A stretch of 36,688 nt of DNA from Bacillota bacterium (GCA_015059485.1 SVAH01000012.1:1-36688), one strand, 5' to 3'; counted from the stretch's first letter, positions 12,510 through 30,449 are shown. Program-made: numbers and translations. The notes: generated from the sequence alone by a model not told the origin.

Positions 12510-12510
12510 A

Positions 12511-13278: not shown

Positions 13279-13288
13279 GAGGTTTTTT

Positions 13289-15478
13289 ATGAATAAATGT
13301 GATATTATAATACCTATTTATAATGCATTTGATTGTTTAGAAAAGTGTCTTGATTCAATAATTGAGAATACTAATTTAGAAGAAAATAGTATTATTTGTA
13401 TTAACGACAAAAGTACAGATGATAGGGTATTGCCTTTATTAAAAAAATATGAAAAGAAGTATAAGTTTATAAAACTTTTGGAAAATGAAGAAAATAAAGG
13501 GTTTGTGGGTACTGTAAATAGAGGAATGCAATATTCAAAAAATGATGTATTATTATTAAATTCAGATACCGAAGTAGAGGCTGGTTGGTTAGATAATATA
13601 AAAAAATATGCATATAGTCAGCCTAAAATTGCATCTGTTACTCCATTATCTAATAATGCAACGCTAGTTTCTGTTCCAGTTGGTTTACAACGTAATGAAT
13701 TACCAAAAAACATGAGTTTTAAAGAATATGCAAAAATAGTGAATGAGACAGCATATGATGAAACATTTGAATTACCAACAGCTCATGGTTTTTGTATGTA
13801 TATTAGAAGAGAAGCTTTGGATATAGTTGGATATTTTGACGAAAAAACATTTGGAAAAGGTTATGGAGAAGAAAATGATTTTTCGTTTAGAGCATTGGAT
13901 TATGGATTTAAAAATATTTTATGTCCTAATACAATTGTTTATCATAAGGAGTCTCAATCATTTTCAGAAAAAAGGGCTAAATTAGTTGAAGAACATGGTA
14001 AAATATTACAAGAAAGATATCCCGTTTATAACACGCGAGTTGGATTATGGTGTCAAAATTTTCCAATTAAAAAAATATGTGAAAATATAGATTATCAAAT
14101 AAAACTTCATAATAAGAAGAATGTTTTAATGTTAATACATGATTGGGATATTAATCATCTTGGTGGAACTACAATGCATGTTTACGACATTGTAAAAGCA
14201 AATAGAAAAAAAATGAATATTCATATCTTAGCTCCTAGTAATGGAATTTATAAATTGTATTCTTATTTTGAAGATAGTGAAAAAGTTATTAATCTTAAGG
14301 CAATAGATAATTCTGGAATATTATCGTATTATAATAATTCCTATAAAAAAATGTTAGAAGATGTTATTGAGGGATTTAGAATTAATACAATTCATATCCA
14401 TCATATGATTAGTCATTATTTTGATATAATTGATGTTGCAAAAATGCACAATATTAAATCTATAATAACATTGCATGATTTATATGCATTATGTCCGACA
14501 ATAAATATGTTATATAAAATGGAAGAATACTGTATACCACTAAAAGATAAAAAATGCGATGAATGCATACATATGAAAACTTCATTAAGAAATAACATAG
14601 TTCCTTCTTGGCAAGAAGAATGGAATAAATTTTTACAAAAATTTGATAGAGTAATAGTTCCGTCTGAAAATACGAAGAAGATCATCAATGGTTATTATAA
14701 AAATGTAGACATTGAAGTAATTGAACATGGAATTGAATATGAAGAAAACAATTATAATAATTCAATTGAAGAAAAAGATGCAATTGATGTAGCAATTGTT
14801 GGAGTTGTTTCAATACATAAAGGTGGAAATATCTTAAAAGAATTAGTTAAAGTTAATAATGATAAAATTAGAATTCATCTTTTTGGAGCGACTGAGATAA
14901 AAGAACTAGAGAAAAGTAGAAATAATTATATTTATCATGGAAGATATGAACGTAAAAATCTACCTAAATTATTAAAAGAAAACAACATTAACTTAATATG
15001 CTTATTATCAATTTGGCCTGAAACATATTCATATACTTTAACTGAAAGTATCGCTTCGAATATTCCTGTTTTATCATTTAATATAGGTGCAATTGCGGAT
15101 AGAATTAGTAAAAATGATTTAGGTTGGACTATTCCAATTACGAAAAATGTAAAAGAATTAGAAAAAAAGATAGAAGATATTTTTGATAATAAAGATGATT
15201 TTAAAAAAGTTTTAAAGAATATTAATGATTATCATGTTAAAACGATTGAAGAGATGGGTAAAGACTATTATGAAATTTACAATAAAGATGAATTAATCGA
15301 ACTTAATGGTACAAACTCTGAAGCTATGAAAAGGATAATAGAAAAATCTTGTTATACAACTGAAACCGTTAGTAGTAGTGAAGCTGCGTGGATAATGAAC
15401 TCATTAAGATGGAAGATTGTATCAAAAATAAAAGTTCCAGAATTTATGAAAAAGATTATTAGAAAGGTAGTAAGATGA
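13289..15478 (+). CDS. Two-domain glycosyltransferase (GT2-GT4 fusion)
   Basis: A 729-aa protein with two catalytic modules. Residues about 1-270 form a GT2 domain (CDIIIPIYNAF, NDKSTDD, LLLNSDTEVEAGW with the DXD site, GYGEENDFSFRA with the catalytic acid). Residues about 285-650 form a GT4, GT-B domain starting VLMLIHDW with GGTTMHV. It has a cysteine-containing region (CxPLKDKKCDECIHMK), the IHLFGA strand and the donor-binding PETYSYTLTESIASNIPVLSFNIGA motif. The C-terminus ends NSLRWKIVSK plus a basic tail, as in the 352-aa glycosyltransferase. ATG 13289 with a perfect AGGAGG (13277-13282) is the start. It probably adds two different sugars in sequence to one chain; the specificities are unknown. 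Confidence 0.88.
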   Translation: MNKCDIIIPIYNAFDCLEKCLDSIIENTNLEENSIICINDKSTDDRVLPLLKKYEKKYKFIKLLENEENKGFVGTVNRGMQYSKNDVLLLNSDTEVEAGWLDNIKKYAYSQPKIASVTPLSNNATLVSVPVGLQRNELPKNMSFKEYAKIVNETAYDETFELPTAHGFCMYIRREALDIVGYFDEKTFGKGYGEENDFSFRALDYGFKNILCPNTIVYHKESQSFSEKRAKLVEEHGKILQERYPVYNTRVGLWCQNFPIKKICENIDYQIKLHNKKNVLMLIHDWDINHLGGTTMHVYDIVKANRKKMNIHILAPSNGIYKLYSYFEDSEKVINLKAIDNSGILSYYNNSYKKMLEDVIEGFRINTIHIHHMISHYFDIIDVAKMHNIKSIITLHDLYALCPTINMLYKMEEYCIPLKDKKCDECIHMKTSLRNNIVPSWQEEWNKFLQKFDRVIVPSENTKKIINGYYKNVDIEVIEHGIEYEENNYNNSIEEKDAIDVAIVGVVSIHKGGNILKELVKVNNDKIRIHLFGATEIKELEKSRNNYIYHGRYERKNLPKLLKENNINLICLLSIWPETYSYTLTESIASNIPVLSFNIGAIADRISKNDLGWTIPITKNVKELEKKIEDIFDNKDDFKKVLKNINDYHVKTIEEMGKDYYEIYNKDELIELNGTNSEAMKRIIEKSCYTTETVSSSEAAWIMNSLRWKIVSKIKVPEFMKKIIRKVVR

Positions 15479-16344
15479 AAAATAAAATATGTGGGGTAGT
15501 GGTTTTTTATAATCCAGCTACTGAAGCACTAAATAATATAAATTCTTATCTAAAAAATATTGATAAATTATATATTGTTGATAATACACCAGATAAAAAA
15601 TTAGAAATTGATAATAAAAAAATTGAATATATCCCTTTAATGGATAATAAGGGAATAGCATATGCTTTAAATGTTGGTGCAAAAAGAGCTTTAGATGAAG
15701 GTTATGAATGGATTTTAACTATGGATCAAGATAGCACTTTTAAAGATAATGCTTTACTAAAAATGATTAAATTTTTAGTAAAGCTAAAAAATGATAAATC
15801 TTTTTCAAAACAACAAGATTTATCTTATTCTAAAATCGGCGTACTAAGTCCACTACATTTGATTCCACAAATAGAAGGTCAAAAATATGAAGATGTAACT
15901 AAACCTTTATTAGTTATGACATCTGGAAATCTAGTGAATTTAAAAGCATATAAAAAAATAGGTGGATTTAAAGATTGGTTTTTTATAGATTGTGTTGATT
16001 TCGATTTTTGCTTAAATATGAGAAACCATGGATATGAGGTGGTACAATTAAATACTGCAAAACTAAATCATTCTTTAGGTGAGACTCAAAAGAAAAAAAT
16101 ATTCAATAAGACATGTTTTGTTGGGAATCATAGTGCTACTAGAATGTATTATATGGCTAGAAATAGACTATATTTATATGATTTATATCATGATACATTT
16201 CCAGAATATTGTGAACTAGAAGTTAGTAGAACTAAAAAGGAACTGTACAAAATATGGTTGTTTGAAAAAAATAAAATAACAAAAACATTTGCAATAATTA
16301 AAGGTATTAAAGATTATAAGAAAGGGATAAAAGGAAAAAAATGA
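15475..16344 (+). CDS. GT2-family glycosyltransferase, rhamnosyltransferase-like
   Basis: A 289-aa GT-A enzyme of the kind annotated as RfbF/RgpF-like rhamnosyltransferase. It has CGVVVFYNP at the start, YIVDNTPD, the LMDNKGIAYALNVGAKRA motif, and WILTMDQDST, where DQD is the metal site. FKDWFFIDCVDFDFCLNMRNHGYE includes the catalytic acidic residues. No membrane segments. Its ATG overlaps the previous stop (ATGA), which means coupled translation. The DQDST type points to deoxyhexose transfer in many relatives, but no dTDP-rhamnose genes are present here, so the donor is not settled. Confidence 0.87.
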   Translation: MKNKICGVVVFYNPATEALNNINSYLKNIDKLYIVDNTPDKKLEIDNKKIEYIPLMDNKGIAYALNVGAKRALDEGYEWILTMDQDSTFKDNALLKMIKFLVKLKNDKSFSKQQDLSYSKIGVLSPLHLIPQIEGQKYEDVTKPLLVMTSGNLVNLKAYKKIGGFKDWFFIDCVDFDFCLNMRNHGYEVVQLNTAKLNHSLGETQKKKIFNKTCFVGNHSATRMYYMARNRLYLYDLYHDTFPEYCELEVSRTKKELYKIWLFEKNKITKTFAIIKGIKDYKKGIKGKK

Positions 16345-17855
16345 GAAGGATAATAAAATCACTAACAAATAATAAAAAATTAATCATTGTAGGGATAATA
16401 ATGTTTTTTATTAATTATTTCTTATTATTGAAGCAAAATAATATTTATGTTACACGTGGTAATAATAGCATTTTTAAATACATAATCACATTATTAATTA
16501 TTATGCATTTTATTGTATTTATAGTATTGAAAAAAATGATAAGTAAAAAAATGCCACCTGAAAAAGTCTTTTTAGTTTTTGGAATTATGTTTGGTACGTT
16601 ATTCATGTTTTTTATTCCGTTTGGATATACCCCAGATGAAGCAAATCATTTTTTAAGATCATATGAAATTAGTACAGGAAATTTAATAAGTATAAAAAAA
16701 GAAAATGAAGTTGGAAATTATTTACCAACAAATATTGAAAAAGTAATATCACATTATGAATTGCAAGATGCTTATAAAAATGAAAAAGAAAATCTTTCAA
16801 TAAAGTTTAACAATGAAAAAAAGTTTTATAACTTTGCAAATACTTCGTTATATTCTTTTATATGTTATTTGCCACAAAGTATTGGAATTATGATTGGAAG
16901 ATTATTAAAATTTCCTATATTAATTACTGCCTATTTAGGAAGAATATTAAATTTTAGTTTATGGATAGCATTAATATATTTGGCTATAAAGAAAATTCCT
17001 ATTGGTAAAAATTTAATATTATTTATATCTATGTTGCCAATGTCACTTCAAGAAGCTGTCTCACTTGCACCAGATGCAATGACCAATTGTGTTTCAATAT
17101 CATTAGTTTCATTTGTATTATATCATCTGTATAATAAAAATGAATTCGATAAAAAAAATATGATTATTGCCTCAATACTATGTATTGCAATTTCAATGTT
17201 GAAAATAGTTTATTTACCACTATGTTTGCTATTGATTTTAATACCAGATTCTAAATTTAAATCTAAAAAAAATAAATATTTTAAGATATGTTCTTTAGCA
17301 ATGCTTGTTATTCTATTGAATCTTATATGGTTGAAAATTTCTTCAAATTTTTTAATAGAATTTATGCCTGGTGTTGATTCTGGAAAGCAAGTAATGTATA
17401 TATTGAATCATCCTTATTCATATTTTTCAATTTTATTTAATACTTATGAATATTATTCAATTACTTATATGTTTACAATGTTGGGGTCAAATATGGAATA
17501 TTTGAATGTTTATGTATCTCAACCATGTTTATTAATATATTTTTTATTTATAATATATGCTGCAATGTTTGACACAAATATTGTATTGGAAAAGAAAGTT
17601 AAGTATTTATTTTCTTTTGTTTCAGTATGTATAATATTGTTGATATCAACTAGTTTGTATGTCCAATGGACTTCATATATGAATCCAGAAATTTTAGGAA
17701 TACAAGGTCGTTATTTTTTACCAATATTGTTACCTTTAATGTTGTTATTTAGTAGAAAGTTCAAAAAAAATGCCACTGATTTTTCTAAAATATATTATTA
17801 TATTTTTGCAACAAATTGTTATGTTGTATTGTTACTTTTATATACTCATATTTAG
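16341..17855 (+). CDS. Polytopic membrane protein, DUF2142-like
   Basis: A 504-aa protein with about ten to twelve hydrophobic segments across its full length. After the third segment comes FIPFGYTPDEANHFLRSYEISTG, and near the C-terminus GIQGRYFLPILLPL; both are typical of DUF2142 proteins, which sit in polysaccharide loci. These have the general layout of GT-C enzymes (a large extracytoplasmic loop with acidic residues after the first helix). A role as a lipid-carrier-dependent glycosyltransferase or polymerase outside the membrane is plausible but not shown. It overlaps the preceding gene by four bases. The family name is assigned from motif memory. Confidence 0.75.
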   Translation: MRRIIKSLTNNKKLIIVGIIMFFINYFLLLKQNNIYVTRGNNSIFKYIITLLIIMHFIVFIVLKKMISKKMPPEKVFLVFGIMFGTLFMFFIPFGYTPDEANHFLRSYEISTGNLISIKKENEVGNYLPTNIEKVISHYELQDAYKNEKENLSIKFNNEKKFYNFANTSLYSFICYLPQSIGIMIGRLLKFPILITAYLGRILNFSLWIALIYLAIKKIPIGKNLILFISMLPMSLQEAVSLAPDAMTNCVSISLVSFVLYHLYNKNEFDKKNMIIASILCIAISMLKIVYLPLCLLLILIPDSKFKSKKNKYFKICSLAMLVILLNLIWLKISSNFLIEFMPGVDSGKQVMYILNHPYSYFSILFNTYEYYSITYMFTMLGSNMEYLNVYVSQPCLLIYFLFIIYAAMFDTNIVLEKKVKYLFSFVSVCIILLISTSLYVQWTSYMNPEILGIQGRYFLPILLPLMLLFSRKFKKNATDFSKIYYYIFATNCYVVLLLLYTHI

Positions 17856-17867
17856 GAGGATGCAGTT

Positions 17868-18989
17868 ATGAAAAAAAGAAGTATTATTATAGATTTAATA
17901 AGAATTTTAGCGTCGTTTATGGTTATTATGTGTCATGTAAAACTTCCACCAATTCGAATTGATGGAACGATTGATATAGGAAAAATGGTAATAGCTTGTA
18001 TAGTAGGTGATGGAGTTGCATTTTTTTGGATTATGTCAGGCTTTTTCGCATTTAGAAATGAAGATTATTCTAAAAAAATAAAAAATGTTTTTAAAACAAT
18101 AGTGTTACCAACAATAATGCTTATATTTTTTTCAATATTATTCTTCGATTTCATAATAAATGAACACTCCTTTAAATATTGTCTTTTCAATTTAGGGAGT
18201 TGCCATTCAAAAGAAAATATAGATAGTTTGTTATCAGGCGTTATAACTTTTAATGCTTCATTAATTCCTGAGGCACCTCATTTATGGTATGTATTTACAT
18301 ACATTGGAAATTACTTTTGGGTTCCTATATTATCATTATTATTTATAAAAGATGGTAACGAAACTAGAATTGCAAAGCGAATTATATTTATTCTTAGTAT
18401 TTTAGCATTGATTTTTGAAAGTATTGAGCAGTTCTATTTATTAAAGTATGGACATATTATTAAGATTACAATAGTTAGTCACTCTTTATTTTTAATATTA
18501 ATAGGAAAAACAATATATGATAATATAGATAAAATTAGAAATAATAAAAAGATAAGATACATTGGTATTGGAATGTATTTGATATTTAGCGGTTTAAAAA
18601 TATGGCTGCAATATTTGTTATATTCAAAAAATGTTGCAAATACTTTTTTCTTACAATGGTCATCGATGCCAGCAATTTTGGATACAATCGGCTTGATTAT
18701 ATTTTTGTTAACATTTGATATTAAATCAAATAAGGTAATAAGTTATATTGGAAAAGCAACTTTTGGGATTTACTTAATACATTGGGCAGTAAAAGAAAAA
18801 ATTGCATATATTGGATTTAACGAAAAGCTTTTTAGTTTTTTTAATGTTGATTCATCAAGTTTTTTATCAGAATTATTATATACGATTGTCTTATCATTTA
18901 TTGTATTTATTATAAGTTTATTAATAGTACTACTATTGAAGTTATTAAAGGAGAGTGTGAAATGTTTAAAAAAATTAAAAAGTTATTAA
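17868..18989 (+). CDS. Membrane acyltransferase (acyltransferase 3 / OafA-like)
   Basis: A 373-aa protein with about ten membrane segments. The start RSIIIDLIRILASFMVIMCHV is the family signature: an Arg, then a catalytic His in the first helix. The WIMSGFFAFRNEDY and HLWYVFTYIGNYFWVPIL segments and the late IGKATFGIYLIHW motif also fit. Enzymes of this family acetylate or otherwise acylate sugars of surface polymers. The start has a strong AGGAGG site. The 3' end overlaps the next gene by 28 bases, so they are coupled. Whether the substrate is an oligosaccharide repeat unit or a wall polymer cannot be told. Confidence 0.85.
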   Translation: MKKRSIIIDLIRILASFMVIMCHVKLPPIRIDGTIDIGKMVIACIVGDGVAFFWIMSGFFAFRNEDYSKKIKNVFKTIVLPTIMLIFFSILFFDFIINEHSFKYCLFNLGSCHSKENIDSLLSGVITFNASLIPEAPHLWYVFTYIGNYFWVPILSLLFIKDGNETRIAKRIIFILSILALIFESIEQFYLLKYGHIIKITIVSHSLFLILIGKTIYDNIDKIRNNKKIRYIGIGMYLIFSGLKIWLQYLLYSKNVANTFFLQWSSMPAILDTIGLIIFLLTFDIKSNKVISYIGKATFGIYLIHWAVKEKIAYIGFNEKLFSFFNVDSSSFLSELLYTIVLSFIVFIISLLIVLLLKLLKESVKCLKKLKSY

Positions 18990-20359
18990 GTAATATATCA
19001 ATCGAAGATGTTGTAATTTTTGTAATTCCATTTCTAGTTTGTACATTAATGCTATATGTATATTATCCTGGTATATATAATTATGATGTTTTTAATCAAT
19101 TATCTCAAATAGAAACTGGGAAATATACAACAGGACATCCTTTCATTTCAACATTTTATTTGATGATTTTTCATAAATACATTGGAATTAAATCATCATT
19201 ACCAATGTTTCAAATAATATGGTTTTCATTATTATGTACTGCAATATCTAAATATACTAGAAAAAGTAAATTTCATTTTGTATTACAAATAATTGTTGTA
19301 TTGTTCTTTTCAATTAATCCATTAATATCAACTTCAATTATTTCAAATAACAAAGATTCATTATTTCTTTTAATTTTTATGACTATTTGCTATTTTTTGT
19401 GGGTTGTAATTGATAATAATTTTATATGTAGTAAAAGAATATATATTTTTCTAGCATTTTTTATGATTTTTTTTGGTAAAGTTCGTCATAACGGTTTTTA
19501 TGTTAATTGTGTGTTTATTACAATATTTATGAGCATTGTTTTAATTAAAACATTAAAAAAAGATAAGAAAATTATACTTTCATTCGCTTGTTCATTAGTA
19601 TTTAGTTTTATATTATTTTTAATACCATCAAAGTTTTATGATGTTGAAAGTGTAGCTATGGATGCTCAAAGTGTTGGGTCGTTAAAAGCATTACAGTTTG
19701 AGGGTTACTTATACAATAGGAAAAAATTATCAAAGGATGAAATAAATGAATTAGATAAATTTATAAACCTAGAGTCTTTATCTATTAATAGTTTTAATAC
19801 TTCATATATGGATCCTATGATTATTGTTGAAAAAAAGGATAATTATTATGATACACAAAAATTTTTAAAAGTGAGTTTAAAAATTTTATTGAATCATAAA
19901 ACAGAAGGATTTGAATTTTTCTTGAAAAGTACTCCAATTATATGGAGAATATATTTACCAGAAAAAATAATGCATTCATATGTTTGGATAGATATAGGTG
20001 TTCCAAATAGAATTGAAAGTATAGACTATGTTAATAAAAATAGTAAATTGTTTAGCGTTGTAGATTCCACGTTAAGAAAATTTCAAGAGGGAAAAGGAAA
20101 CAAGTTAATAATTTCGATTTTCTATAGCCCAGCTTTTTATATGTATTTATCAATTTTATTAACAATAATTCTTATTATAAAAAACAATAAATATACGTGG
20201 TTAATAACTTTTTATAATTTAATTAATGTTGGAATAATTTCATTGTCCATACCAGTGCAAGATTCACGATATTTATTAAACGGACACGGTCTTCTTATAA
20301 TATTAACAATAATTTTAATTGGTACATTTGTCAAAAATAATAAAAGTAAAAAAATATAA
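18962..20359 (+). CDS. Polytopic membrane protein, DUF6020-like
   Basis: A 465-aa protein with about ten membrane segments. After the first helix come YYPGIYNYDVFNQL and GHPFISTFYLMIFH, a Tyr-Asp and His-Pro pair typical of the DUF6020 group in Bacillota surface loci. ISNNKDSLFLLIF follows the fourth helix. Residues about 220-340 form an extracytoplasmic loop region, after which three more helices close the protein. The layout resembles GT-C glycosyltransferases. The start overlaps the acyltransferase gene. Function unproven: a polymerase or lipid-carrier-dependent glycosyltransferase is possible. The family assignment is from memory of motifs. Confidence 0.7.
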   Translation: MFKKIKKLLSNISIEDVVIFVIPFLVCTLMLYVYYPGIYNYDVFNQLSQIETGKYTTGHPFISTFYLMIFHKYIGIKSSLPMFQIIWFSLLCTAISKYTRKSKFHFVLQIIVVLFFSINPLISTSIISNNKDSLFLLIFMTICYFLWVVIDNNFICSKRIYIFLAFFMIFFGKVRHNGFYVNCVFITIFMSIVLIKTLKKDKKIILSFACSLVFSFILFLIPSKFYDVESVAMDAQSVGSLKALQFEGYLYNRKKLSKDEINELDKFINLESLSINSFNTSYMDPMIIVEKKDNYYDTQKFLKVSLKILLNHKTEGFEFFLKSTPIIWRIYLPEKIMHSYVWIDIGVPNRIESIDYVNKNSKLFSVVDSTLRKFQEGKGNKLIISIFYSPAFYMYLSILLTIILIIKNNKYTWLITFYNLINVGIISLSIPVQDSRYLLNGHGLLIILTIILIGTFVKNNKSKKI

Positions 20360-20392
20360 TTATTTGGTAAAAATAGATTGGAAGTGTTAGTT

Positions 20393-21109
20393 ATGAAAAA
20401 TAGAATACTATTAATAATTCCAGCCTATAATGAAGAGGCTAATATAAAAAAAACAATTGATAAAATAGTTGATTATAATAAAAAATCACAAAACCAAGTT
20501 GATTTTATTGTAATAAATGACGGTTCAAAGGATAGTACAGAAGAAATATTACAAAAAAATAGTATTAATCATATTAGATTAATACATAACCTTGGAATAG
20601 GTGGAGCTGTACAAACTGGATATAAATATGCTTATGAAAATAATTATGACATAGCAATTCAGTATGATGGTGATGGTCAACATGATGTTAATTATGTTGA
20701 TAGATTAATTGATCCAATCATTAATGATAATATTAATATGGTTATAGGTTCAAGATTCATTGAAAAAAGCAGTAGCGATTTTCAATCATCATTTATGAGA
20801 AGGGTAGGAATTAATGTAATCTCTTTCGTAATAAAAATAAAAACTAAGAAAAAAATATATGATACAACAAGTGGATTTAGAGCTGTGGATAATAATATAA
20901 TAAAATTATTTGCAGATTATTATCCAACAGAATATCCAGAACCTATATCAACTGTTAATGTCATAAATAGAAAATTTAAAGTTGCTGAAGTACCCGTTGC
21001 AATGAATGAAAGAGAAGGGGGAAAGTCTTCAATTAATTCATGGAAAACAATTTATTACATGATAAATGTAATTCTTACTATACTTTTATCAAAAAGGGGG
21101 AATAAATAA
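20393..21109 (+). CDS. GT2 glycosyltransferase, polyprenyl-phosphate sugar synthase-like (DPM1 type)
   Basis: 238-aa soluble GT-A enzyme: RILLIIPAYNEEANI, FIVINDGSKDST, HNLGIGGAVQTGY, and AIQYDGDGQHD with the DXD metal site. DTTSGFRAVD is the motif of dolichyl/undecaprenyl-phosphate mannosyl- and glucosyltransferases. The start ATG 20393 follows GGAAGTG; the upstream TTG (20378) is unlikely. The next gene codes a small membrane protein of the DUF2304 type, a usual partner that probably anchors or positions this enzyme. It likely loads a sugar onto undecaprenyl phosphate for use outside the membrane, perhaps by the polytopic proteins upstream. Confidence 0.87.
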   Translation: MKNRILLIIPAYNEEANIKKTIDKIVDYNKKSQNQVDFIVINDGSKDSTEEILQKNSINHIRLIHNLGIGGAVQTGYKYAYENNYDIAIQYDGDGQHDVNYVDRLIDPIINDNINMVIGSRFIEKSSSDFQSSFMRRVGINVISFVIKIKTKKKIYDTTSGFRAVDNNIIKLFADYYPTEYPEPISTVNVINRKFKVAEVPVAMNEREGGKSSINSWKTIYYMINVILTILLSKRGNK

Positions 21110-21471
21110 TGATAACAAGTAATTTGCGAATATTATTAATAATTTTTTCACTAATTTTATTTTTAATGGTGCTTAGATTAATAGCAAATAAAAAAATTCC
21201 AATAAAATATTCTTTAATTTGGCTTTTAGTATCAGTTCTCATATTTGTAGTAGGAGCTTTTCCAAAATTTGTTAGCTTTTTTACCACAAAAATTGGATTT
21301 GAAACAACTTCAAATTTAGTTATTGGAATTATATTAACTCTGTTATTATTTATTACTTTAATACTTACAGTTATTGTAGCAGATCAAAAGAAAAAAATTA
21401 AATTATTAATTCAGGAAACATCAATAATAAAAAGTAGAATAGAAGAGGAAAAAAATGAAAAAAGTAGATAA
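21109..21471 (+). CDS. Small membrane protein, DUF2304 type
   Basis: 120 aa with three membrane segments (about 6-24, 34-52, 68-92) and a charged C-terminal helix (about 95-120). The layout and the conserved IKYSLIWLLVSV segment match DUF2304 proteins, which usually follow a DPM1-like GT2 gene as here. The start codon shares one base with the preceding stop (TAATG), so translation is coupled. It is thought to hold the glycosyltransferase at the membrane or help present the lipid carrier; this is inferred from gene pairing. Confidence 0.82.
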   Translation: MITSNLRILLIIFSLILFLMVLRLIANKKIPIKYSLIWLLVSVLIFVVGAFPKFVSFFTTKIGFETTSNLVIGIILTLLLFITLILTVIVADQKKKIKLLIQETSIIKSRIEEEKNEKSR

Positions 21472-22693
21472 TGAAAAGAAAAATTTTTTATGGAATGCTG
21501 TTGGTCTTTCCATGAATACTTTCAATTCACTTTTTTTTATGATAATCATAAATAGAATAAATAGTGGAAGAGAAGCTGGTATTTTCACATTTGCTTTTTC
21601 TCTAGTTGGTATGCTATATTTTATTGCAATTTTTTACAGTAGAGCTTTCCAAGTTTCTAATAAAAAATTTAGTAATAAAGAGTACATAATTCATAGAATT
21701 ATTAATTGTATTTTAACATTAATAATTTCTACACTATTTGTTGTAATTTGCAAATACTCATTTTATAAAAGCATAATTATATTATTGATAACTTTATTTA
21801 GAGTGTTAGAGGCTTTAGCAGATGTCTTTTATGGGATAGAGCAAGTAAATGGTTATTTGTATAAAGCTGGAAAATCGATGTTTTTTAAAGGACTAATATC
21901 GATTATAGTATTTTTAATTATTGATATAATTACTAAAGATGTAAGATTAAGTTGTTTTGGAATTATTATAATTAACTTATTTGGAATACTTTTTTATGAC
22001 ATAAAAAATAGTAAAGATTATATTGAAAATGATATCAAAATGTCTAATTTAATAAGTTTATATAAAAAGACATTACCAATCTTTATATTTTCGTTTTTAA
22101 GTATTTATTTAGTAAATTCTACTAAATATACATTAGATTTTTATGATTCAGCAGAAATCCAAAATATTTTTGGAATAATTCTAATGCCGGGAACAATGCT
22201 AAGTTTATGTTGTCAATATATTTTAAATCCATATCTAAATAAAATGAGTGATTTAAAAAAAAACAACAATTTCTTAGATTTTAATAAATTAATTGCTAAA
22301 ATAAGTAGTTATGTAATTTTATTAGGAATATTGGGAGAAATTGTATGTTATTTAATTGGAATCCCATTATTAAATTTTGTATACAATATAGATTTAAAAC
22401 AATATAAATATTTATTATTAATAATTATTATTGGTGCAATTTGCTATGCACTTGTTAATATATTTAGTTCTGCTTTAACTATATTAGAACGAAATTTTAT
22501 TCAAATGATAATATACATAATTAATTCGATATTTGCTTTTATAATATCAATAATACTAATTAGTAATTATAAGATTAAAGGGGCTGCTATAGGTTATTCT
22601 ATAATAATGTTATTAATTTTAATTACATATATATTATGTTATAATAAAACTATGAAAGATTTGAGGTATGAAAATGAAACAACGAATAAATGA
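21455..22693 (+). CDS. Oligosaccharide flippase, Wzx/PST-type
   Basis: A 412-aa protein with twelve or so hydrophobic segments, of the MOP superfamily. It begins [29 protein letters not shown], the usual start of polysaccharide flippases (charged N-terminus followed by GL or G-x-x-x-N and a NR). The central loop contains [15 protein letters not shown]. It would flip lipid-linked repeat units to the outer face. The gene starts inside the DUF2304 gene and runs into gmhA with a 20-base overlap. The locus thus holds both a flippase and an ABC exporter, which normally belong to different assembly routes. Confidence 0.87.
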
Positions 22694-23252
22694 AGTTATT
22701 GAAGAGCAAATTCAAAATTTGAAAAATCTTGAGTTAACGAATTATACTACTGAAGTAATTAGCGTTGGAAATATGATTGTTGAATCAATAAAAAATGGTG
22801 GAAAAGTTTTAATAGCTGGAAATGGTGGATCAGCAGCTGATGCACAACACTTTGCAGCTGAATTAGTTGGAAGGTTTGTTATGGAAAGAAAAGGATATCC
22901 AGCTATAGCCTTGACAACTGATTCATCAATAATTACATCAATTGGTAATGATTATAATTTTGATGTTATTTTTAAAAGACAGATTGAGGCTTTAGGAAAT
23001 GAAAATGATGTATTTGTTGGAATAACAACAAGTGGGAATTCAAAAAATGTAGTTGAAGCTGCAATTGAAGCAAAAGAAAAAAATATGAAAGTAATTGGAT
23101 TAACTGGACATGACGGTGGAAAATTAAAAGAATTAAGTGATATATGTATCAATTTTCCTTATGCTGAAACTGCAAGAATACAAGAACATCATTTAATGAC
23201 ATATCATTTGATATGTGAATATGTAGAAAAAGAGTTATCAAAAGAAGAGTAG
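22674..23252 (+). CDS. gmhA: Sedoheptulose-7-phosphate isomerase (GmhA)
   Basis: Converts sedoheptulose 7-phosphate to D-glycero-D-manno-heptose 7-phosphate, the first step of nucleotide-heptose synthesis. The SIS-domain protein of 192 aa has the family motifs [19 protein letters not shown] (phosphate-binding Ser), [38 protein letters not shown] and a C-terminal [17 protein letters not shown] with the metal and catalytic His and Glu. ATG 22674 is preferred because GAGG at 22663-22666 is too close to ATG 22668. The region overlaps the flippase end. Together with hldE, gmhB and the GT9 gene it makes a complete heptose module. Confidence 0.95.
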
Positions 23253-23262
23253 TGATTAAATT

Positions 23263-24471
23263 ATGAATAATAGTTATATGAATAAAAAATTTGTTAATTT
23301 TTCAGGCGTATTTCAAAAGAATATGTTATTACGAAATATTAAAGGGATAATGTATTTTGTTGATGGATTAATGAGTTTATTTATAAAAAAAGCTAAATAT
23401 AAGAAAGATAATAAAAAGAAAGTACTAATTGTTTATAATATAGCATTAGGCGATGGAGTAATATTTAGATGTACTGCTCTCCATTTAAGAGAATTGTATC
23501 CAAAAGATAAATATGAATTAACTTTAATTTGTCAAAAAGGTTTAAATAAAATTTATGAAAATGATAATGTTTTTGATGATATAATAACAATAGACTACAA
23601 CAAATCTGTTGTTAATTTAAAGGAAAGATTTAAAAATTTTAAAGTACTAAGAAATAAATATTATGATATTGTAATTGATCCAGTTGGAATATCTGAATGG
23701 ACTACTAATATATTTTATACAAGAATGGCACTTGGAAAAGAAAAAATAGGATTGATGGATACAAATTTAGAAATTCATTGTAGTAAAAGAAAAATAAATA
23801 AAATATATACTAAAATAGTTGAATTAAAAGAAAAAAACTTATCTTTAATTGAATATTATGCTAAATTTTTTAGTAAATTAGAAAATAAAAAAATTGATGT
23901 TGGATTAGAAAAATTAAACATAGTTCCAAATAAGTTAGACCTACCAAAAAAATATTATATAATTTTTCCTGCTGCAAGTATGAAATTGAAAAGATGGAAT
24001 ATTGATAAATATGTAGAGCTATCAAAAAAAATATATCAAAAAACAAAAATGAAAATGGTACTTCTTGGAACAAATTCAGACAAAGAAACAATGGATATTT
24101 TTAAACAAAAATTAGATGTTCCATATATTGATTTATTTAATAAAACTAGTTTAAATGATTATTTTGATGTAATAGCTAATGCATCATTAGTTGTAACAAA
24201 TGATACAAGTGCCTATCATATTGCTGTGGTATCAGAGGCTCCAGTTGCTCTAATAAGTGGAGTCTATACTTATCACAGATACATGTTATATAATTTTAAA
24301 AGAATGAATGAATTTAGAAAGCCTTTATTAATAGCTGATAAAAGAAAATGTATGGATTGTTATAATAGATGTCCATATTTAAAAAAAGATAATGAAAATT
24401 GGCCTTGCTTAGAATCTATAACTGTAGATTATGCTTGGAAAGAAATTGAAAAACTTATAAATAAAAAATAA
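23263..24471 (+). CDS. GT9-family (heptosyltransferase-like) glycosyltransferase
   Basis: 402-aa GT-B enzyme related to the ADP-heptose:LPS heptosyltransferases. The N-terminal domain has VLIVYNIALGDGVIFRCTALHLREL, the conserved G-D of the acceptor site, and YDIVIDPVG. The C-terminal donor domain has FPAASMKLKRWN, MVLLGTNSDKE and VVTNDTSAYHIA, the GT9 'TND-x-(G/S)-x-x-H-x-A' motif. A cysteine cluster (CMDCYNRCPY and a later Cys) lies near the end. It sits between gmhA and hldE, so the donor is very likely the nucleotide heptose they make. In Gram-negatives the acceptor is lipid A-Kdo; here, with no LPS genes seen, it must be a surface glycan. Confidence 0.85.
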   Translation: MNNSYMNKKFVNFSGVFQKNMLLRNIKGIMYFVDGLMSLFIKKAKYKKDNKKKVLIVYNIALGDGVIFRCTALHLRELYPKDKYELTLICQKGLNKIYENDNVFDDIITIDYNKSVVNLKERFKNFKVLRNKYYDIVIDPVGISEWTTNIFYTRMALGKEKIGLMDTNLEIHCSKRKINKIYTKIVELKEKNLSLIEYYAKFFSKLENKKIDVGLEKLNIVPNKLDLPKKYYIIFPAASMKLKRWNIDKYVELSKKIYQKTKMKMVLLGTNSDKETMDIFKQKLDVPYIDLFNKTSLNDYFDVIANASLVVTNDTSAYHIAVVSEAPVALISGVYTYHRYMLYNFKRMNEFRKPLLIADKRKCMDCYNRCPYLKKDNENWPCLESITVDYAWKEIEKLINKK

Positions 24472-24485
24472 AGGAGAAAAATATT

Positions 24486-25937
24486 ATGAATATAGAATTA
24501 CTTGAAGAATTAAAAAATAAAACAGTATTAGTGTTTGGAGATTATATGGTTGATAAATATATCAATGGTGATGTAAAAAGAATATCTCCAGAGGCACCGG
24601 TTCCTGTAATTGAAGTAAAAAATGAAACACAAAAATTAGGTGGAGCAGGTAATGTTATTAACAATATTGTTTCTCTTGGTGGAAAAGTTAAAGTATTAGC
24701 GTGTATAGGAAATGATGTTAATGGAAAGTTTATAATAGATTCATTTAATAATAATAATATTGATAAAAAATATTTAAAAAAATATGATGAAATTGATACT
24801 ATTGTAAAAACAAGAGTTGTTTCTAAAAATCAACAGTTTTTAAGAATAGATAAAGAAAAAAAAGAGCCAATATTAGAATGTTATATTAGGTATATTAAAG
24901 AAAATATTGAAGACGTATTTAATGGAGTAGATGTTTTAATTATTTCAGATTATTGTAAAGGGGCAGTTTCTAAAGAAATATCACAATTACTAATAAAAAA
25001 TGCTAGAAAAAGAAATATTTCTATTATAATAGATCCTAAAGGAACAGATTATTCTAAATATAAAGGCGCAACAATGATAACTCCAAATTTAAAAGAGTTG
25101 TCAGCAGTTGTAAATAAAGAAGTTGAAACAGAAGATGATATAAAAAAATACGGAAAAAAATTAGTAAATGATTTAGATTTAAAGTATTTAGTATTAACTA
25201 GATCAGAAAAAGGAATTACAACAGTTGATAGTAGTGGCAAAAAGCAAGATTTTCCAGCAATTGCTAAAGAAGTTATTGATGTTTCTGGAGCAGGAGATAC
25301 TGTTGTTGCAACAACTGCATTATTAGAAGCTTTAGAATATCCAATTGAAAATATATGTAAAATAGCCAATATGGCTGCTTCAGTAGTTGTTTCAAAATTT
25401 GGAACATCAACAGTAAGTTTAAATGAATTAATGAAAAGTATATATTCATTTGGAGATTTTAAATATCAAACAGTAGAATCATTAAAATATATAATTCAAG
25501 ATTTAAAAGATAAAGGTAAAAAAGTAGTATTTACAAATGGTTGTTTTGATATGTTACATGTCGGTCATCTATCTTCATTTAAACAAGCTAGAGAGTTTGG
25601 AGATATTTTAATAGTGGCAGTTAATTCTGATGCTTCAGTAAAACAAAATAAAGGTGATTTAAGACCAATTATAAATGAAAATGATAGAATTAAAATGATA
25701 ACAGAATTAGAGTGTGTTGATTATGTTCTATTAATGAATGATAAAACTCCAGAAAAAATAATTGAAGAACTTAAACCTGACATTTCTGTTAAGGGAGAAG
25801 ATTGGAAAGATAAAGAAGTTCCTGAAGAAAAAATATTAAAGAGTTATGGTGGTAAATTGGAATATATAAAATTAAGCCCTGGTAATTCAACTACTAAAAT
25901 AATTGAGAGAGTAATTAAAGCATATGGAAAGGAATAA
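24486..25937 (+). CDS. hldE: Bifunctional heptose 7-phosphate kinase / heptose 1-phosphate adenylyltransferase (HldE)
   Basis: A 483-aa two-domain enzyme, the full length of E. coli HldE. Residues 1-~315 are a ribokinase-type kinase: GDYMVDKYINGDVKRISPEAPVPV, KLGGAGNV, and the GAGDT motif with catalytic Asp271. It phosphorylates heptose 7-phosphate at C1. Residues ~345-480 are a nucleotidyltransferase: TNGCFDMLHVGH with HVGH at 358-361, VNSDASVKQNKG and VKGEDW, which forms ADP-heptose from heptose 1,7-bisphosphate after GmhB action. By family the nucleotide is ADP; sequence alone cannot exclude another. An AAAGGAG site precedes the start. The gene overlaps gmhB. Confidence 0.94.
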   Translation: MNIELLEELKNKTVLVFGDYMVDKYINGDVKRISPEAPVPVIEVKNETQKLGGAGNVINNIVSLGGKVKVLACIGNDVNGKFIIDSFNNNNIDKKYLKKYDEIDTIVKTRVVSKNQQFLRIDKEKKEPILECYIRYIKENIEDVFNGVDVLIISDYCKGAVSKEISQLLIKNARKRNISIIIDPKGTDYSKYKGATMITPNLKELSAVVNKEVETEDDIKKYGKKLVNDLDLKYLVLTRSEKGITTVDSSGKKQDFPAIAKEVIDVSGAGDTVVATTALLEALEYPIENICKIANMAASVVVSKFGTSTVSLNELMKSIYSFGDFKYQTVESLKYIIQDLKDKGKKVVFTNGCFDMLHVGHLSSFKQAREFGDILIVAVNSDASVKQNKGDLRPIINENDRIKMITELECVDYVLLMNDKTPEKIIEELKPDISVKGEDWKDKEVPEEKILKSYGGKLEYIKLSPGNSTTKIIERVIKAYGKE

Positions 25938-26439
25938 AGTGATTTTTTTAGATAGGGATGGAACCATTAATATTGATTATGGCTATGTTTATCAAAAGGA
26001 AAAATTAGAATTTATTGATGGTGCGATTGAAGGATTAAAAAATCTTTCAACAGCAGGATACAAACTAATTATAATAACTAACCAATCGGGTATTGGTAGA
26101 TGTTTTTTTACTGAAGAAGATTATGTTGAATTCAATAATTATTTTTTAGGGCAATTAAAATTATTTGGAATAGAAATAGAAAAAGTATATTATTGTCCAC
26201 ATACTGATAGTGATAATTGCGAATGTAGAAAACCAAAGTTAAAACTATTTTATGATGCAATAGAAGAGTTTAATGTAGATTTGTCTAATTCTTATGCAAT
26301 AGGTGATAAAGAAAGAGATTTAGCAATATGTAGTGAAACATCGATTAAAGGAATATTAATTGGAAATAAGAGTGATAAATATTTAAATTTTTCAAATTTG
26401 TTAGATGCTGCAAATTATATAACGAAAGAAAGTGATTAG
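25924..26439 (+). CDS. gmhB: D-glycero-beta-D-manno-heptose-1,7-bisphosphate 7-phosphatase (GmhB)
   Basis: HAD-family phosphatase removing the 7-phosphate between the two HldE steps. The DRDGT motif gives nucleophile Asp10 and Asp12 (ATG 25924 numbering), the phosphate-binding Thr/Asn lie in IITNQSGIGRC, and the zinc site is Cys91, His93, Cys99 and Cys101 in CPHTDSDNCECRKP, characteristic of GmhB/HisB-N types. GDKERDL supplies the late acidic residues. 171 aa is normal. An alternative start is GTG 25939, with AAAGGAA just upstream and just past the hldE stop; the first five residues are not conserved in the family, so either is possible. Confidence 0.93.
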   Translation: MERNKVIFLDRDGTINIDYGYVYQKEKLEFIDGAIEGLKNLSTAGYKLIIITNQSGIGRCFFTEEDYVEFNNYFLGQLKLFGIEIEKVYYCPHTDSDNCECRKPKLKLFYDAIEEFNVDLSNSYAIGDKERDLAICSETSIKGILIGNKSDKYLNFSNLLDAANYITKESD

Positions 26440-26440
26440 A

Positions 26441-27235
26441 ATGAAAATATCAATAATAACAGTTTGCTATAATTCAGAAAAAACAATTGAAGAAACTATT
26501 AAATCAGTATTATCGCAAACTTATGAAAATTATGAATACCTAATAATTGATGGTAAGAGTACAGATAATACTTTAGAAATAGTTAAAAAATATGAAAAAA
26601 AATTCAAAGGAAAATTAAAATATATATCAGAAAAAGATAAAGGTCTTTATGATGCAATGAATAAAGGAATAAAGATGGCAACAGGAGATATCATTGGTAT
26701 AATAAATTCTGATGATATCTTAGCAAACGAAAAAGTATTTGAAAAAATAAATGATGCTTTTATAAATAATGAATGTGATGCAGTTTATTCAGATTTAGTA
26801 TTTTTAGATGAAGAAACAATGTCAATTCCAACAAGAAATTTTATAGCACATAAATATTCAAAGAGAATGGGATGGCATCCACCACATCCAACACTTTATT
26901 TAAAAAAAGAAGTATATGAAGAAGTTGGATATTTCAATACTGATTATAAAATTGCTGCAGACTTGGATATAATGTTGAGAATAATACATAATAATTATAA
27001 GTTTTACTATATAAAAGAATATCTAGTTAAAATGAGATCTGGTGGAGTAAGTACTAATGGATTAAAAGGATATTTAAAAAATTTAAAAGAGGCAAATGTA
27101 GTCTTAAAGAAAAATAATATTAAATTTGCTTATATAATTAATATTTTTAGAATATTTAAAACGTTTAAGCAAAGTTTAAGTGCAAAATTGTTTAAAAATA
27201 AAATAATAGGTAAAATAGGTTTTTTTGATAAGTAA
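26441..27235 (+). CDS. GT2-family glycosyltransferase (WcaA/WcaE-like)
   Basis: 264-aa GT-A enzyme: ISIITVCYNSEKTIEETI, LIIDGKSTDNT, ISEKDKGLYDAMNKGIKMATGDIIGIINSDD (with the metal-binding SDD), HPPHPTLYLKKEVYEEVGYF, and DLDIMLRI with the acidic catalytic pair. This type with 'SEKDKGLYDAMNKG' is common in colanic acid and capsule loci. The start is ATG 26441, just after the gmhB stop; GTG 26432 would overlap. It is the last gene of this transcript, closing with a terminator whose left arm covers its stop codon. The donor may be heptose or mannose by proximity, which is only a guess. Confidence 0.86.
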   Translation: MKISIITVCYNSEKTIEETIKSVLSQTYENYEYLIIDGKSTDNTLEIVKKYEKKFKGKLKYISEKDKGLYDAMNKGIKMATGDIIGIINSDDILANEKVFEKINDAFINNECDAVYSDLVFLDEETMSIPTRNFIAHKYSKRMGWHPPHPTLYLKKEVYEEVGYFNTDYKIAADLDIMLRIIHNNYKFYYIKEYLVKMRSGGVSTNGLKGYLKNLKEANVVLKKNNIKFAYIINIFRIFKTFKQSLSAKLFKNKIIGKIGFFDK

Positions 27236-27256
27236 TAAAATACTTATCATTTTTAA
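27226..27256 (+). terminator. Intrinsic terminator closing the heptose gene block
   Basis: TGATAAGTA (27226-27234) pairs with TACTTATCA (27241-27249), loop ATAAAA, followed by TTTTTAATT. The left arm includes the last codons of the preceding gene. Confidence 0.75.
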
Positions 27257-27286
27257 TTGACTAAAAAATATATATTATTATATAAT
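27257..27286 (+). promoter_or_regulatory. Promoter of the GT4 gene
   Basis: TTGACT (27257-27262), an 18-base spacer and TATAAT (27281-27286). AAGGGGG precedes the start at 27310. Confidence 0.7.
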
Positions 27287-27309
27287 ATATTTCAATTTAA
27301 GGGGGATAT

Positions 27310-28410
27310 ATGAAAAAAATAATTCAAATAAACACAGTATGTTATGGTTCAACAGGTAAAGTAATGAAAAACATTCAAAAAAATGCTGAAGAGAAAGGAT
27401 TTAAAACATTATCAATATATGGTAGAGGAAAAGGTTATAATGATTTAAACTGTATTAAAATAGGTGGTTTTTTTTCATTTTGGTTACATGTAATATTATC
27501 AACAGTTTTTGATTCTCAAGGTTACCATGGATCATACTTTAAAACTAAAAAAATAGTTAAAATATTAAAAAAAGAAAATCCAGATGTCATATATCTTCAT
27601 AACATACATGGTTATTATTTAAATTATCCAGTCCTATTTAATTTTTTAAAAAATGATTATAATGGAAAAATATATTGGGTATTTCATGACTGTTGGCCAT
27701 TTACAGGTCATTGTGCATATTTTACATTGAAAAAATGTAAAAGATGGAAAAAAGAATGTCATAATTGTCCTAATAAAAAAGTTTATCCAATTAGTTTAAT
27801 TTTTGATAATTCTAAAAAAAATTATTTGAGAAAAAAAGAAATATTTAATTCATTGACAAATGTTACAATAATTACACCTTCTGATTGGTTAAATCATTTA
27901 GTAAAAAAATCTTTTTTAAAAAAATATGATGTTAAAACAATTAATAATACAATAGACGAAAGCATATTTCAAAGTAAAAAAAATGATGAAATTTTACAAA
28001 AATATAATATTGATAAAAGTAAAAAAATAGTATTAGGGGTAGCAAATATCTGGGAAGAAAGAAAAGGATTAAATGATTTTATAAAAATTGCTACTAAACT
28101 TCCAAATGATTATCAAGTTGTATTAGTTGGAATAAGCAAAAGGCAAAAAAAGAAAGTACCTAATAATATTATTTGTATTAGTAGAACTGAAAATCAAAAT
28201 GATTTAGCTGTTTTATATTCTAGTGCATATGTATTTGTTAATCCAACTTATGAAGATAATTATCCAACTGTTAATTTAGAAGCAATTGCATGTAAAACAA
28301 AAGTAATTTGTTATGATACCGGAGGTTGTAAAGAACAAATAATAAATGGAAAGGGATTTATAGTTCCAGTTGGAAATATAAATAAACTAATTAAAGGTAT
28401 TATAGAATAA
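27310..28410 (+). CDS. GT4-family glycosyltransferase (WcaC-like)
   Basis: 366-aa GT-B enzyme. The N-terminus KKIIQINTVCYGSTGKVMKNI has the GSTG acceptor loop. The middle has VIYLHNIHGYY and WVFHDCWPFTGHCAYF, followed by Cys-rich CKRWKKECHNCPNK, a signature of the WcaC group from colanic acid loci. The C-terminal domain gives VLGVANIWEERKGLNDF and FVNPTYEDNYPTVNLEAIACKTKVICYDTGG, the nucleotide-sugar-binding E-x7-E region. It has its own promoter and ends 67 bases before the next gene, which also has its own promoter. Donor and acceptor unknown. Confidence 0.87.
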   Translation: MKKIIQINTVCYGSTGKVMKNIQKNAEEKGFKTLSIYGRGKGYNDLNCIKIGGFFSFWLHVILSTVFDSQGYHGSYFKTKKIVKILKKENPDVIYLHNIHGYYLNYPVLFNFLKNDYNGKIYWVFHDCWPFTGHCAYFTLKKCKRWKKECHNCPNKKVYPISLIFDNSKKNYLRKKEIFNSLTNVTIITPSDWLNHLVKKSFLKKYDVKTINNTIDESIFQSKKNDEILQKYNIDKSKKIVLGVANIWEERKGLNDFIKIATKLPNDYQVVLVGISKRQKKKVPNNIICISRTENQNDLAVLYSSAYVFVNPTYEDNYPTVNLEAIACKTKVICYDTGGCKEQIINGKGFIVPVGNINKLIKGIIE

Positions 28411-28427
28411 TTTAATTGTTTAAAGTA

Positions 28428-28457
28428 TTTACTTGTAAAGAAAAGTAATGATATAAT
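28428..28457 (+). promoter_or_regulatory. Promoter of the membrane GT2 gene at 28478
   Basis: TTTACT (28428-28433), an 18-base spacer, and TGA-TATAAT (TATAAT at 28452-28457, extended -10). Confidence 0.6.
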
Positions 28458-28477
28458 ATATTTATAAGGAGTAAGTT

Positions 28478-29419
28478 ATGAAAAAAGAAGAAAAGAAAAT
28501 AGCAGTTTTAATACCATGCTATAATGAATCAAAAACAATAGAAAAAGTAGTAAAAGATTATAAGAAAGCATTACCTGATGCTGATATTTATGTGTATGAT
28601 AATAATTCTAAAGATCATACAGATGAAATAGCAAAAGAAGCTGGAGCTATAGTTCGTTATGAATATCGTCAAGGAAAAGGAAATGTTATTAGAACAATGT
28701 TTAGAGATATTGAGGCTGACTGTTATTTAATGATAGATGGAGATGATACATATCCAGCTGAAAATGCAAAAGAAATGTGTGATTTAGTTCTTTCTGGTAG
28801 AGCGGATATGGTTATTGGTGATAGATTATCATCTACATATTTTACTGAAAATAAAAGACCTTTCCATAATTTTGGAAATAGAATAGTAAGACTTTTAATT
28901 AATACATTATTTAACAACCATGTTAAAGATATAATGACAGGTTATAGAGCATTTTCATATGATTTTGTTAAAGGTTTTCCAGTTTTATCAAAAGGATTTG
29001 AAATAGAAACAGAAATGACTATCCACGCTGTTGATAAAAATTATAAGCTTGTTGAAATACCTGTTACTTATCGTGATAGACCAGAAGGATCTGTTTCTAA
29101 ATTAAATACATATAGTGATGGAATGAAAGTTTTAAAAACAATAGCAGTATTATTTAAAGAATATAAACCAATGGGATTTTTTGGAATAATATCATTACTT
29201 TTAGCATTAATATCATTAATATTTTTAATCCCACCATTTGCAGGATATTTTGCAACAGGAGAAGTTGCTAAATTTCCATCTCTTATTGTTGGATGTTTTA
29301 TATTACTTACATCAGTATTATCACTTATGTGTGGAATAATATTACAAGTAATAGTAAAAAAAGATAGACAACAATATGAACTTATAATGAATGAATTAAA
29401 AAATACACGAAAAGACTAG
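28478..29419 (+). CDS. Membrane-anchored GT2 glycosyltransferase (polyprenyl-phosphate sugar type)
   Basis: 313 aa. The GT-A domain has KIAVLIPCYNESKTI, VYDNNSKDHTDE, YRQGKGNVIRTMF and LMIDGDDTYPAE with the DXD site. DIMTGYRAFSYDFVKGFP and ETEMTIHAVDKNYKLVEIPVTYRDRPEGSVSKL, the DPM1-like end of the catalytic domain, follow. Two membrane segments (about 232-252 and 263-287) and a charged C-terminus complete it. It probably transfers a hexose to undecaprenyl phosphate, giving a donor for extracytoplasmic glycosylation. It has its own promoter and RBS (AAGGAG) and is followed by a weak terminator. Confidence 0.86.
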   Translation: MKKEEKKIAVLIPCYNESKTIEKVVKDYKKALPDADIYVYDNNSKDHTDEIAKEAGAIVRYEYRQGKGNVIRTMFRDIEADCYLMIDGDDTYPAENAKEMCDLVLSGRADMVIGDRLSSTYFTENKRPFHNFGNRIVRLLINTLFNNHVKDIMTGYRAFSYDFVKGFPVLSKGFEIETEMTIHAVDKNYKLVEIPVTYRDRPEGSVSKLNTYSDGMKVLKTIAVLFKEYKPMGFFGIISLLLALISLIFLIPPFAGYFATGEVAKFPSLIVGCFILLTSVLSLMCGIILQVIVKKDRQQYELIMNELKNTRKD

Positions 29420-29440
29420 TTTAATGCTAGTTTTTATTTT
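29411..29440 (+). terminator. Weak terminator-like hairpin between GT2 genes
   Basis: ACTAG (from 29415) pairs with CTAGT (29427-29431), followed by TTTTATTTT. The stem is short, so read-through into the next gene is likely. Confidence 0.45.
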
Positions 29441-29471
29441 ATAATTATATTAGAAATTATGGAGTAAAAAA

Positions 29472-30449
29472 ATGAAAAAAAATAATATATTATATATCAT
29501 TATTCCGTGTTTTAATGAAGAAAAAGTATTAAAAAATACTACTAAAAGATTAGTAAAAAAATTAAATGAATTTATAAAAAATAATAAAATTAGTAAAAAT
29601 AGTAAAATAATGTATGTGAATGATGGATCAAGAGATGAAACATGGAATATTATAAAAGAACTGAATAATAAAGAAAAAATGGTAACAGGAATATCTTTAT
29701 CAAGAAATAAAGGGCATCAAAATGCTTTGCTTGCTGGGCTTATGACTGCTAAGGAATATGCAGATGTAGTAATAAGTATGGATGCAGATTTACAAGATGA
29801 TATAGATGCAATTGATGAAATGTTAGATAAATATTATGATGGATGCCAAATAGTATATGGAGTAAGAAAAGCAAGAAAAAAAGATTCTTTCTTTAAAAGA
29901 GTAACTGCTCAAGGATTTTATAAATTTATGAAATTAATGGGCGTAGATATTATTTATAATCATGCAGACTATAGATTAACATCAAAAATAGTATTAGATG
30001 AATTAGAAAATTATAAAGAAGTAAATTTATTTTTAAGAGGTATATTTCCATTAATTGGCTTTAAAACTGATATTGTTTATTATGATAGAGCAGAAAGATT
30101 TGCTGGAAAATCAAAATATCCACTTAAGAAAATGTTAAACTTTGCATGGGATGGGATAACATCTTTTAGTGTAAAACCAATAAGATTTATATTAACATTT
30201 GGAATTCTTATACTTATATTGAGTTTTATTCTAATATGTTATTCAATAGTTATGAAGATAACTAATCATACAGTACCAGGATGGACATTTATAATCTGTT
30301 CAATATGGTTTATTGCAGGAGTACAAATGTTATCTTTAGGAATAATTGGAGAATACATTGGAAAAATATATAATGAAACAAAAGGAAGGCCAAGATTTAT
30401 TATTAGTGAAAACTTATTAGAAACTAAAGAGACAAGATACAAAGATTAG
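29472..30449 (+). CDS. GtrB-like membrane glycosyltransferase (polyprenyl-phosphate sugar synthase)
   Basis: 325 aa, GT2. YIIIPCFNEEKVL, MYVNDGSRDETW, ISLSRNKGHQNALLAGLMTA and VISMDADLQDD (DXD) are the classic motifs of the GtrB/Bactoprenol glucosyl transferase family. YYDRAERFAGKSKYPLKKML is the amphipathic juxtamembrane helix, followed by two membrane segments (about 233-256 and 270-294). The GtrB enzyme makes undecaprenyl-phosphate glucose on the inner face. This is the third DPM1/GtrB-like enzyme in the locus. Last gene of the polysaccharide region, followed by a clear terminator. Confidence 0.89.
   Translation: MKKNNILYIIIPCFNEEKVLKNTTKRLVKKLNEFIKNNKISKNSKIMYVNDGSRDETWNIIKELNNKEKMVTGISLSRNKGHQNALLAGLMTAKEYADVVISMDADLQDDIDAIDEMLDKYYDGCQIVYGVRKARKKDSFFKRVTAQGFYKFMKLMGVDIIYNHADYRLTSKIVLDELENYKEVNLFLRGIFPLIGFKTDIVYYDRAERFAGKSKYPLKKMLNFAWDGITSFSVKPIRFILTFGILILILSFILICYSIVMKITNHTVPGWTFIICSIWFIAGVQMLSLGIIGEYIGKIYNETKGRPRFIISENLLETKETRYKD

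Follow-up and report, generated by a model that had tools for sequence, protein, structure and literature searches.

A predicted ADP-heptose cassette within a glycan locus of apparently monoderm gut Bacilli

What might a walled member of the Bacillota do with a complete set of enzymes for making nucleotide-activated heptose? The question is raised by a stretch of 36,688 nucleotides from a Bacillota bacterium (hereafter the window, meaning the whole stretch of DNA that was analysed), in which a sequence-only reading had placed GmhA, HldE, and GmhB together with a GT9 glycosyltransferase at 22674-26439. All four genes lie there and all pass their family cut-offs. Considering gene identity, active-site conservation, conserved gene order, co-occurrence, and the absence of LPS and HldD genes, we regard a working heptose cassette serving a monoderm surface glycan as the best explanation of the whole, and hold it with good though not full confidence.

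Predicted enzymes of the cassette

Gene identity was judged against the curated score cut-offs of NCBIfam, given here in bits. The first gene, gmhA (22674-23252), encodes a predicted sedoheptulose-7-phosphate isomerase that scores 224.2 against TIGR00441, above the cut-off of 209.45. Its residues H61, E65, Q172, and H180 are invariant in all 12 aligned proteins and correspond to the zinc ligands of gonococcal GmhA, H61/E65/H183/Q175 (PMC5387315). The open reading frame offers starts at 22668 and 22674, of which the second is probably used: it is where aligned relatives begin, and a GAGG motif precedes it by about 8 nt. Further along, hldE (24486-25937) encodes a predicted bifunctional D,D-heptose-7-phosphate kinase and heptose-1-phosphate adenylyltransferase, with the kinase domain (TIGR02198, 363.1 against 345) and the nucleotidyltransferase domain (TIGR02199, 182.6 against 181.5) both above cut-off on one chain. 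This protein carries the motifs GAGDT and NGCFDxLHxGH and matches a solved heptose kinase (4e84) and nucleotidyltransferase (5x9q). Against the full-length E. coli-type equivalog NF008454 it scores 484.3, which is 37 bits short of the cut-off of 521; the HldE of another Bacillota locus, L015, reaches 520.2. The last gene, gmhB (25924-26439), encodes a predicted heptose-1,7-bisphosphate 7-phosphatase (TIGR00213, 153.5 against 149.6), in which the HAD nucleophile and acid, D10 and D12, and a Cys/His loop (C91/H93/C99/C101) are invariant in the alignment. While the margins are small for GmhB and the HldE domains, these scores support a complete predicted route from sedoheptulose 7-phosphate to ADP-heptose, as the earlier reading had proposed. 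The four genes share the plus strand, and neighbours either overlap briefly or stand no more than 14 bases apart; gmhA overlaps the preceding gene and gmhB the following one, an arrangement that makes the block look like part of one operon.

Between gmhA and hldE lies the GT9 gene (23263-24471), whose product scores 77.7 bits against PF01075, where the cut-off is 22. It falls below the equivalog cut-offs of both WaaF (TIGR02195, 70.2 against 134.6) and WaaC (TIGR02193, 64.5 against 185.3), so the acceptor is not readable from homology; misses this wide fit an acceptor other than known LPS core. A predicted structural model (pLDDT 84) was compared with solved folds, and the best matches were 3tov (a GT9 of Veillonella parvula), 1psw (E. 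coli WaaF), and 2h1h (WaaC with ADP-2F-heptose). Residues D64, K243, D314, and H319 are invariant and align with D13, K192, D261, and H266 of WaaC, which we take to be the catalytic residues. The protein is thus predicted to be a heptosyltransferase-type enzyme with the GT-B fold of WaaC and WaaF, using ADP-heptose, much as the sequence-only reading had described it.

The fold of the GT9 model also matches TibC, a user of ADP-D,D-heptose (PMC4358343), and the four cysteines near its C-terminus, spaced CX2CX3CX11C, recall those of the TibC iron finger (Cys 339, 342, 358, 370). Both features would suit a use of the heptose on proteins, by O-heptosylation of the TibC/AAH kind, rather than in a polysaccharide; a secreted small molecule is a further outlet, as ADP-heptose serves Gram-positive bacteria in making septacidin and hygromycin B (PMC9704527). 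However, the Campylobacterota GT9 proteins in our set also have a C-terminal quartet (CX2CX4CX6C), so the quartet is no pointer to TibC, and TibC-type glycosylation as deduced from it was dropped on finding that WaaF-like GT9 proteins carry it too. Moreover, the window shows no recognisable autotransporter or antibiotic genes, and the neighbours of the cassette encode glycosyltransferases and an exporter. We therefore consider an outlet in proteins or small molecules unlikely, and incorporation into a surface glycan the better reading.

The form of the heptose was approached through HldD. In all five HldE-positive genomes, three of them more than 90% complete, the HldD model stayed below its cut-off of 274.6 bits, with a best score of 37.8 in the genome of the window. 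On a gene adjoining hldE in L015 that model reaches 404 bits, so the search is able to detect HldD. Its absence makes the D,D form the predicted product, and ADP-D,D-heptose should be made with no epimerization. The L015 locus itself (L015:7272-16452, in a Bacillota MAG labelled Paenibacillaceae) contains gmhA-hldE-hldD, an exporter, and GT9 genes (two clear and one marginal); by its gene content, it is a predicted L,D-heptose version of the same locus type.

As to the nucleotide, a commentary on Tang et al. 2024 describes a rule, STTR5, by which an arginine in the motif (F/L)XXGXSTT is tied to the use of CDP or UDP (PMC11461863). The rule is not absolute, a Salmonella HldE being promiscuous in the absence of the arginine. 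The window HldE reads LSPGNSTT and has no such arginine, so that ADP would be expected rather than CDP or UDP. The choice between ADP and GDP, which the earlier reading had left to be checked, is answered only at the level of family: HldE belongs to the beta/ADP route and not to that of HddA and HddC, neither of which turned up among the window genes that were searched against families. HldE might also have drifted to another beta-sugar phosphate, such as beta-mannose 1-phosphate, and yield a different ADP-sugar, given that E. coli and Vibrio HldE form ADP-beta-mannose in vitro (PMC10948575) and that mannose genes lie nearby. Against such a drift, every cassette of the group keeps GmhA and GmhB along with HldE, and in clusters of this kind the known role of these two enzymes is in heptose synthesis; we judge the drift very improbable beside the heptose assignment.

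Host envelope and the surrounding glycan locus

All genomes of the group are metagenome-assembled (MAGs), and that of the window is 74% complete with an estimated contamination of 2.6%; gene absences in it are therefore weak alone and lean on its relatives. No LpxC was found in this genome or in 193 genomes of the family (of which 140 are 90% complete or more), and neither KdtA/WaaA nor Omp85 was found in any of the five HldE-positive genomes, while control genomes gave matches to both. Penicillin-binding transpeptidases (PBPs) are encoded in all five, as is transketolase, for substrate supply. Taken together, the missing LpxC, KdtA, and Omp85 and the presence of PBPs make the host look like a monoderm, walled member of the Bacilli. 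The lack of lipid A and Kdo genes noted for the window thus extends to the available genome and family, and the walled host that had been suggested is borne out. A diderm, Negativicutes-like member of the Bacillota using the cassette for LPS core could be imagined from the best structural match of the GT9, which comes from the diderm Veillonella parvula, but these same absences, with positive controls for KdtA and Omp85, leave that reading with hardly any probability.

The cassette of this apparently monoderm host lies within a glycan locus of about 20 genes, spanning roughly 6.2-30.4 kb of the window, whose further members are likewise on the plus strand. At its left end is a LytR-CpsA-Psr (LCP) glycopolymer transferase, a candidate for attachment to peptidoglycan (6263-7750; PF03816, 146.2 bits; NF051849 Cps2A, 336.6 with a cut-off of 650). 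A ManC-like mannose-1-phosphate guanylyltransferase and a type I phosphomannose isomerase (8324-10616; PF00483, PF20511; TIGR01479, 215 bits, below the cut-off of 373) would supply GDP-mannose, and are followed by a GT2 glycosyltransferase (10691-11758; PF00535, 139.3 bits). Next is a predicted polysaccharide ABC exporter of the TagGH/Wzm-Wzt type (11772-13278; PF01061), with its ATPase at 11772-12509 and its permease at 12502-13278, for which NF010065 is the best match at 245.6 bits, below the cut-off of 538. A GT2-GT4 fusion and another GT2 glycosyltransferase (13262-16344; Pfam) precede a DUF2142 polytopic protein, an acyltransferase-3, and a 9-TM protein (16341-20359; Pfam and hydropathy). 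The last of these (18962-20359; 465 aa, about nine TM segments) has no Pfam or NCBIfam match and is possibly a GT-C glycosyltransferase or a polymerase. Just upstream of gmhA are a DPM1-like GT2, a DUF2304 protein, and a predicted polytopic flippase-like protein of about 10 TM segments (20378-22693; PF00535, PF10066), an order that is kept with gmhA in L005 and L011-L014. Four glycosyltransferases (GT2, GT4, GT2, and a PgfS-like GT2; 26432-30449; Pfam/NCBIfam) lie downstream of gmhB.

Homologues of the exporter occur near the cassette in L005, L007, L013, L014, and L015, and from the locus as a whole we conclude that D,D-heptose is probably incorporated into an exported glycan. We propose that, without HldD, the D,D form of the heptose would be used directly, that the GT9 would move it onto a lipid-linked glycan, probably also containing mannose, and that the Wzm/Wzt-type ABC transporter (or the flippase) would carry this out of the cell, after which the LCP enzyme would probably attach it to peptidoglycan. 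Enzyme activities, acceptor, export, and anchoring are in each case predicted from the genes. The LCP ligase, the ABC exporter, and peptidoglycan enzymes (PBPs) are all encoded, and LCP-mediated attachment is plausible; the LCP gene, which lies 15 kb upstream of the cassette, is the one gene that points to anchoring, and no LCP homologue was seen beside the cassette in the flanks of the relatives.

The left end of the window (1071-3428) encodes a pair of serine recombinases, one a resolvase and the other a large enzyme with a zinc ribbon; the glycan locus starts about 3 kb further on. Phase variation by these enzymes was considered, and no convincing inverted repeats were found.

Distribution and ancestry of the cassette

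A scan of genomes found 80 loci. The order gmhA-GT9-hldE-gmhB is kept in eight other Bacilli MAGs (L004/L010, L005/L009, L007, L008, and L011-L014, where L009 is the contig of L005), and in all Bacilli loci found the GT9 gene sits between gmhA and hldE. Rabbit MAGs account for L007, L008, and L010, and chicken Candidatus Onthousia for L012 and L014, while the isolate label of L011, BRZ_EQ, suggests a horse. It is from these gut sources, rabbit, chicken, and probably horse, that the label "commensal-type" derives. HldE is present in 3 of the 193 family genomes and the GT9 in exactly those three (Fisher p ~8e-7 over the 193 genomes, with relatedness ignored). The four-gene cassette is a real unit and not a product of chance. 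An order-level sample gave five of 385 genomes passing the HldE cut-off, and none of about 391 other Bacillota genomes sampled had an HldE match at E<=1e-60, which makes the trait a rare one at this sensitivity. In one of the five HldE-positive genomes (G372), HldE is identical to its counterpart in Candidatus Onthousia faecipullorum, which places the window in the same family as Candidatus Onthousia; the order of the host is probably RF39. Most RF39 species are predicted to keep a peptidoglycan wall and to be missing standard teichoic acid synthesis (PMC10868615).

The estimated contamination of the bin might suggest that the contig is a Gram-negative contaminant. This reading is strongly disfavoured, and we give it next to no weight: the GC and GC3 of the cassette agree with those of the flanking genes, thrS included; independent Bacilli MAGs carry the cassette too, with flanking glycan genes that are 40-79% identical; and in the HldE tree the Bacillota proteins from the genome_contigs set group in a single clade with 100/100 support. 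That clade has a long stem, and a recent transfer from Gram-negatives, which we had also considered, was set aside on the same tree.

Several variants were met during the survey. The HldE of L091 (G279, of the same family) is more divergent and falls outside the Bacillota clade on a very long branch, its placement being unsure; GT9 genes flank its hldE-gmhB pair on both sides, and its heptose genes are possibly an independent acquisition. In Clostridia MAGs, one of them named Borkfalkia, a GT2-GT9 fusion of 964-974 aa (L016:5114-8008 and L017:5072-7996) occupies the place of the GT9 between gmhA and hldE. About ten family genomes have frames of 480-500 aa scoring 100-109 bits against TIGR02199, and the idea of a second HldE class was abandoned when several of them were read and proved to be an unrelated protein. 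That protein (L096, L098, L099, L109) is a fusion of a nucleotidyltransferase (GSWDxFHxGHL), a cytidine/dCMP-deaminase-like region, and a HIT-like C-terminus; its gene adjoins a thymidylate-synthase-like gene, and it is possibly a nucleotide or DNA modification module.

Relation to known heptose systems

The heptose route is present in some Gram-positive bacteria (PMC10269868; PMC9704527), and neither ADP-heptose in such bacteria nor heptose as part of a Gram-positive surface glycan is without precedent. The apparent novelty is that monoderm gut Bacilli have the beta/ADP route, without HldD but with a dedicated GT9, in a glycan locus linked to an exporter; no papers on heptose in this lineage were found in the open-licence literature. 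ADP-D,D-heptose is an agonist of ALPK1 (PMC9704527), which makes a link to this receptor reasonable, and host sensing of these bacteria by ALPK1 may be supposed. We offer as a tentative proposal, somewhat less likely than not, that a sparse set of LPS-less gut Bacilli build a peptidoglycan-anchored D,D-heptose glycan via ADP-heptose and a dedicated GT9, a first such use of the Gram-negative beta-ADP route in a monoderm wall and a source of ALPK1 agonist without LPS. A 2025 study in Nature linked circulating ADP-heptose to Gram-negative gut bacteria (PMC12137129). ADP-heptose is usually seen as a Gram-negative signal, and a source in monoderm Bacilli would escape reasoning based on LPS or Gram type. 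The locus also offers a candidate wall glycopolymer for a group, probably Bacilli of the RF39 type, in which standard teichoic acid pathways are predicted to be missing (PMC10868615), and a predicted natural system restricted to ADP-D,D-heptose with its own GT9.

Compared with the GmhA-HldE-GmhB-HldD pathway and WaaC/WaaF of E. coli, the window shares the first four catalytic steps, a bifunctional HldE, and a GT9 whose catalytic residues match, but has no HldD and no lipid A or Kdo acceptor, and the genes are clustered with an exporter and LCP in a predicted monoderm. A comparable use of the sugar is found in Aneurinibacillus thermoaerophilus, which carries D,D-heptose in an S-layer glycan (PMC5387315); the likeness lies in D,D-heptose for the surface glycan of a Gram-positive member of the Bacillota, predicted in our case, whereas here the enzymes are the beta/ADP enzyme HldE and a GT9, and not HddA and HddC. 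With the autotransporter heptosyltransferases TibC and AAH, the GT9 shares a GT-B fold, a predicted ADP-D,D-heptose donor, and a C-terminal cysteine quartet (PMC4358343), yet it has a different cysteine spacing, no autotransporter substrate, and no TibC sequence match in a PDB search. Finally, among the NDP-heptose enzymes that Tang et al. 2024 described across kingdoms, as outlined in the same commentary (PMC11461863), the window HldE falls in the subgroup that combines kinase and nucleotidyltransferase, lacking the STTR5 arginine that its relative in L007 carries.
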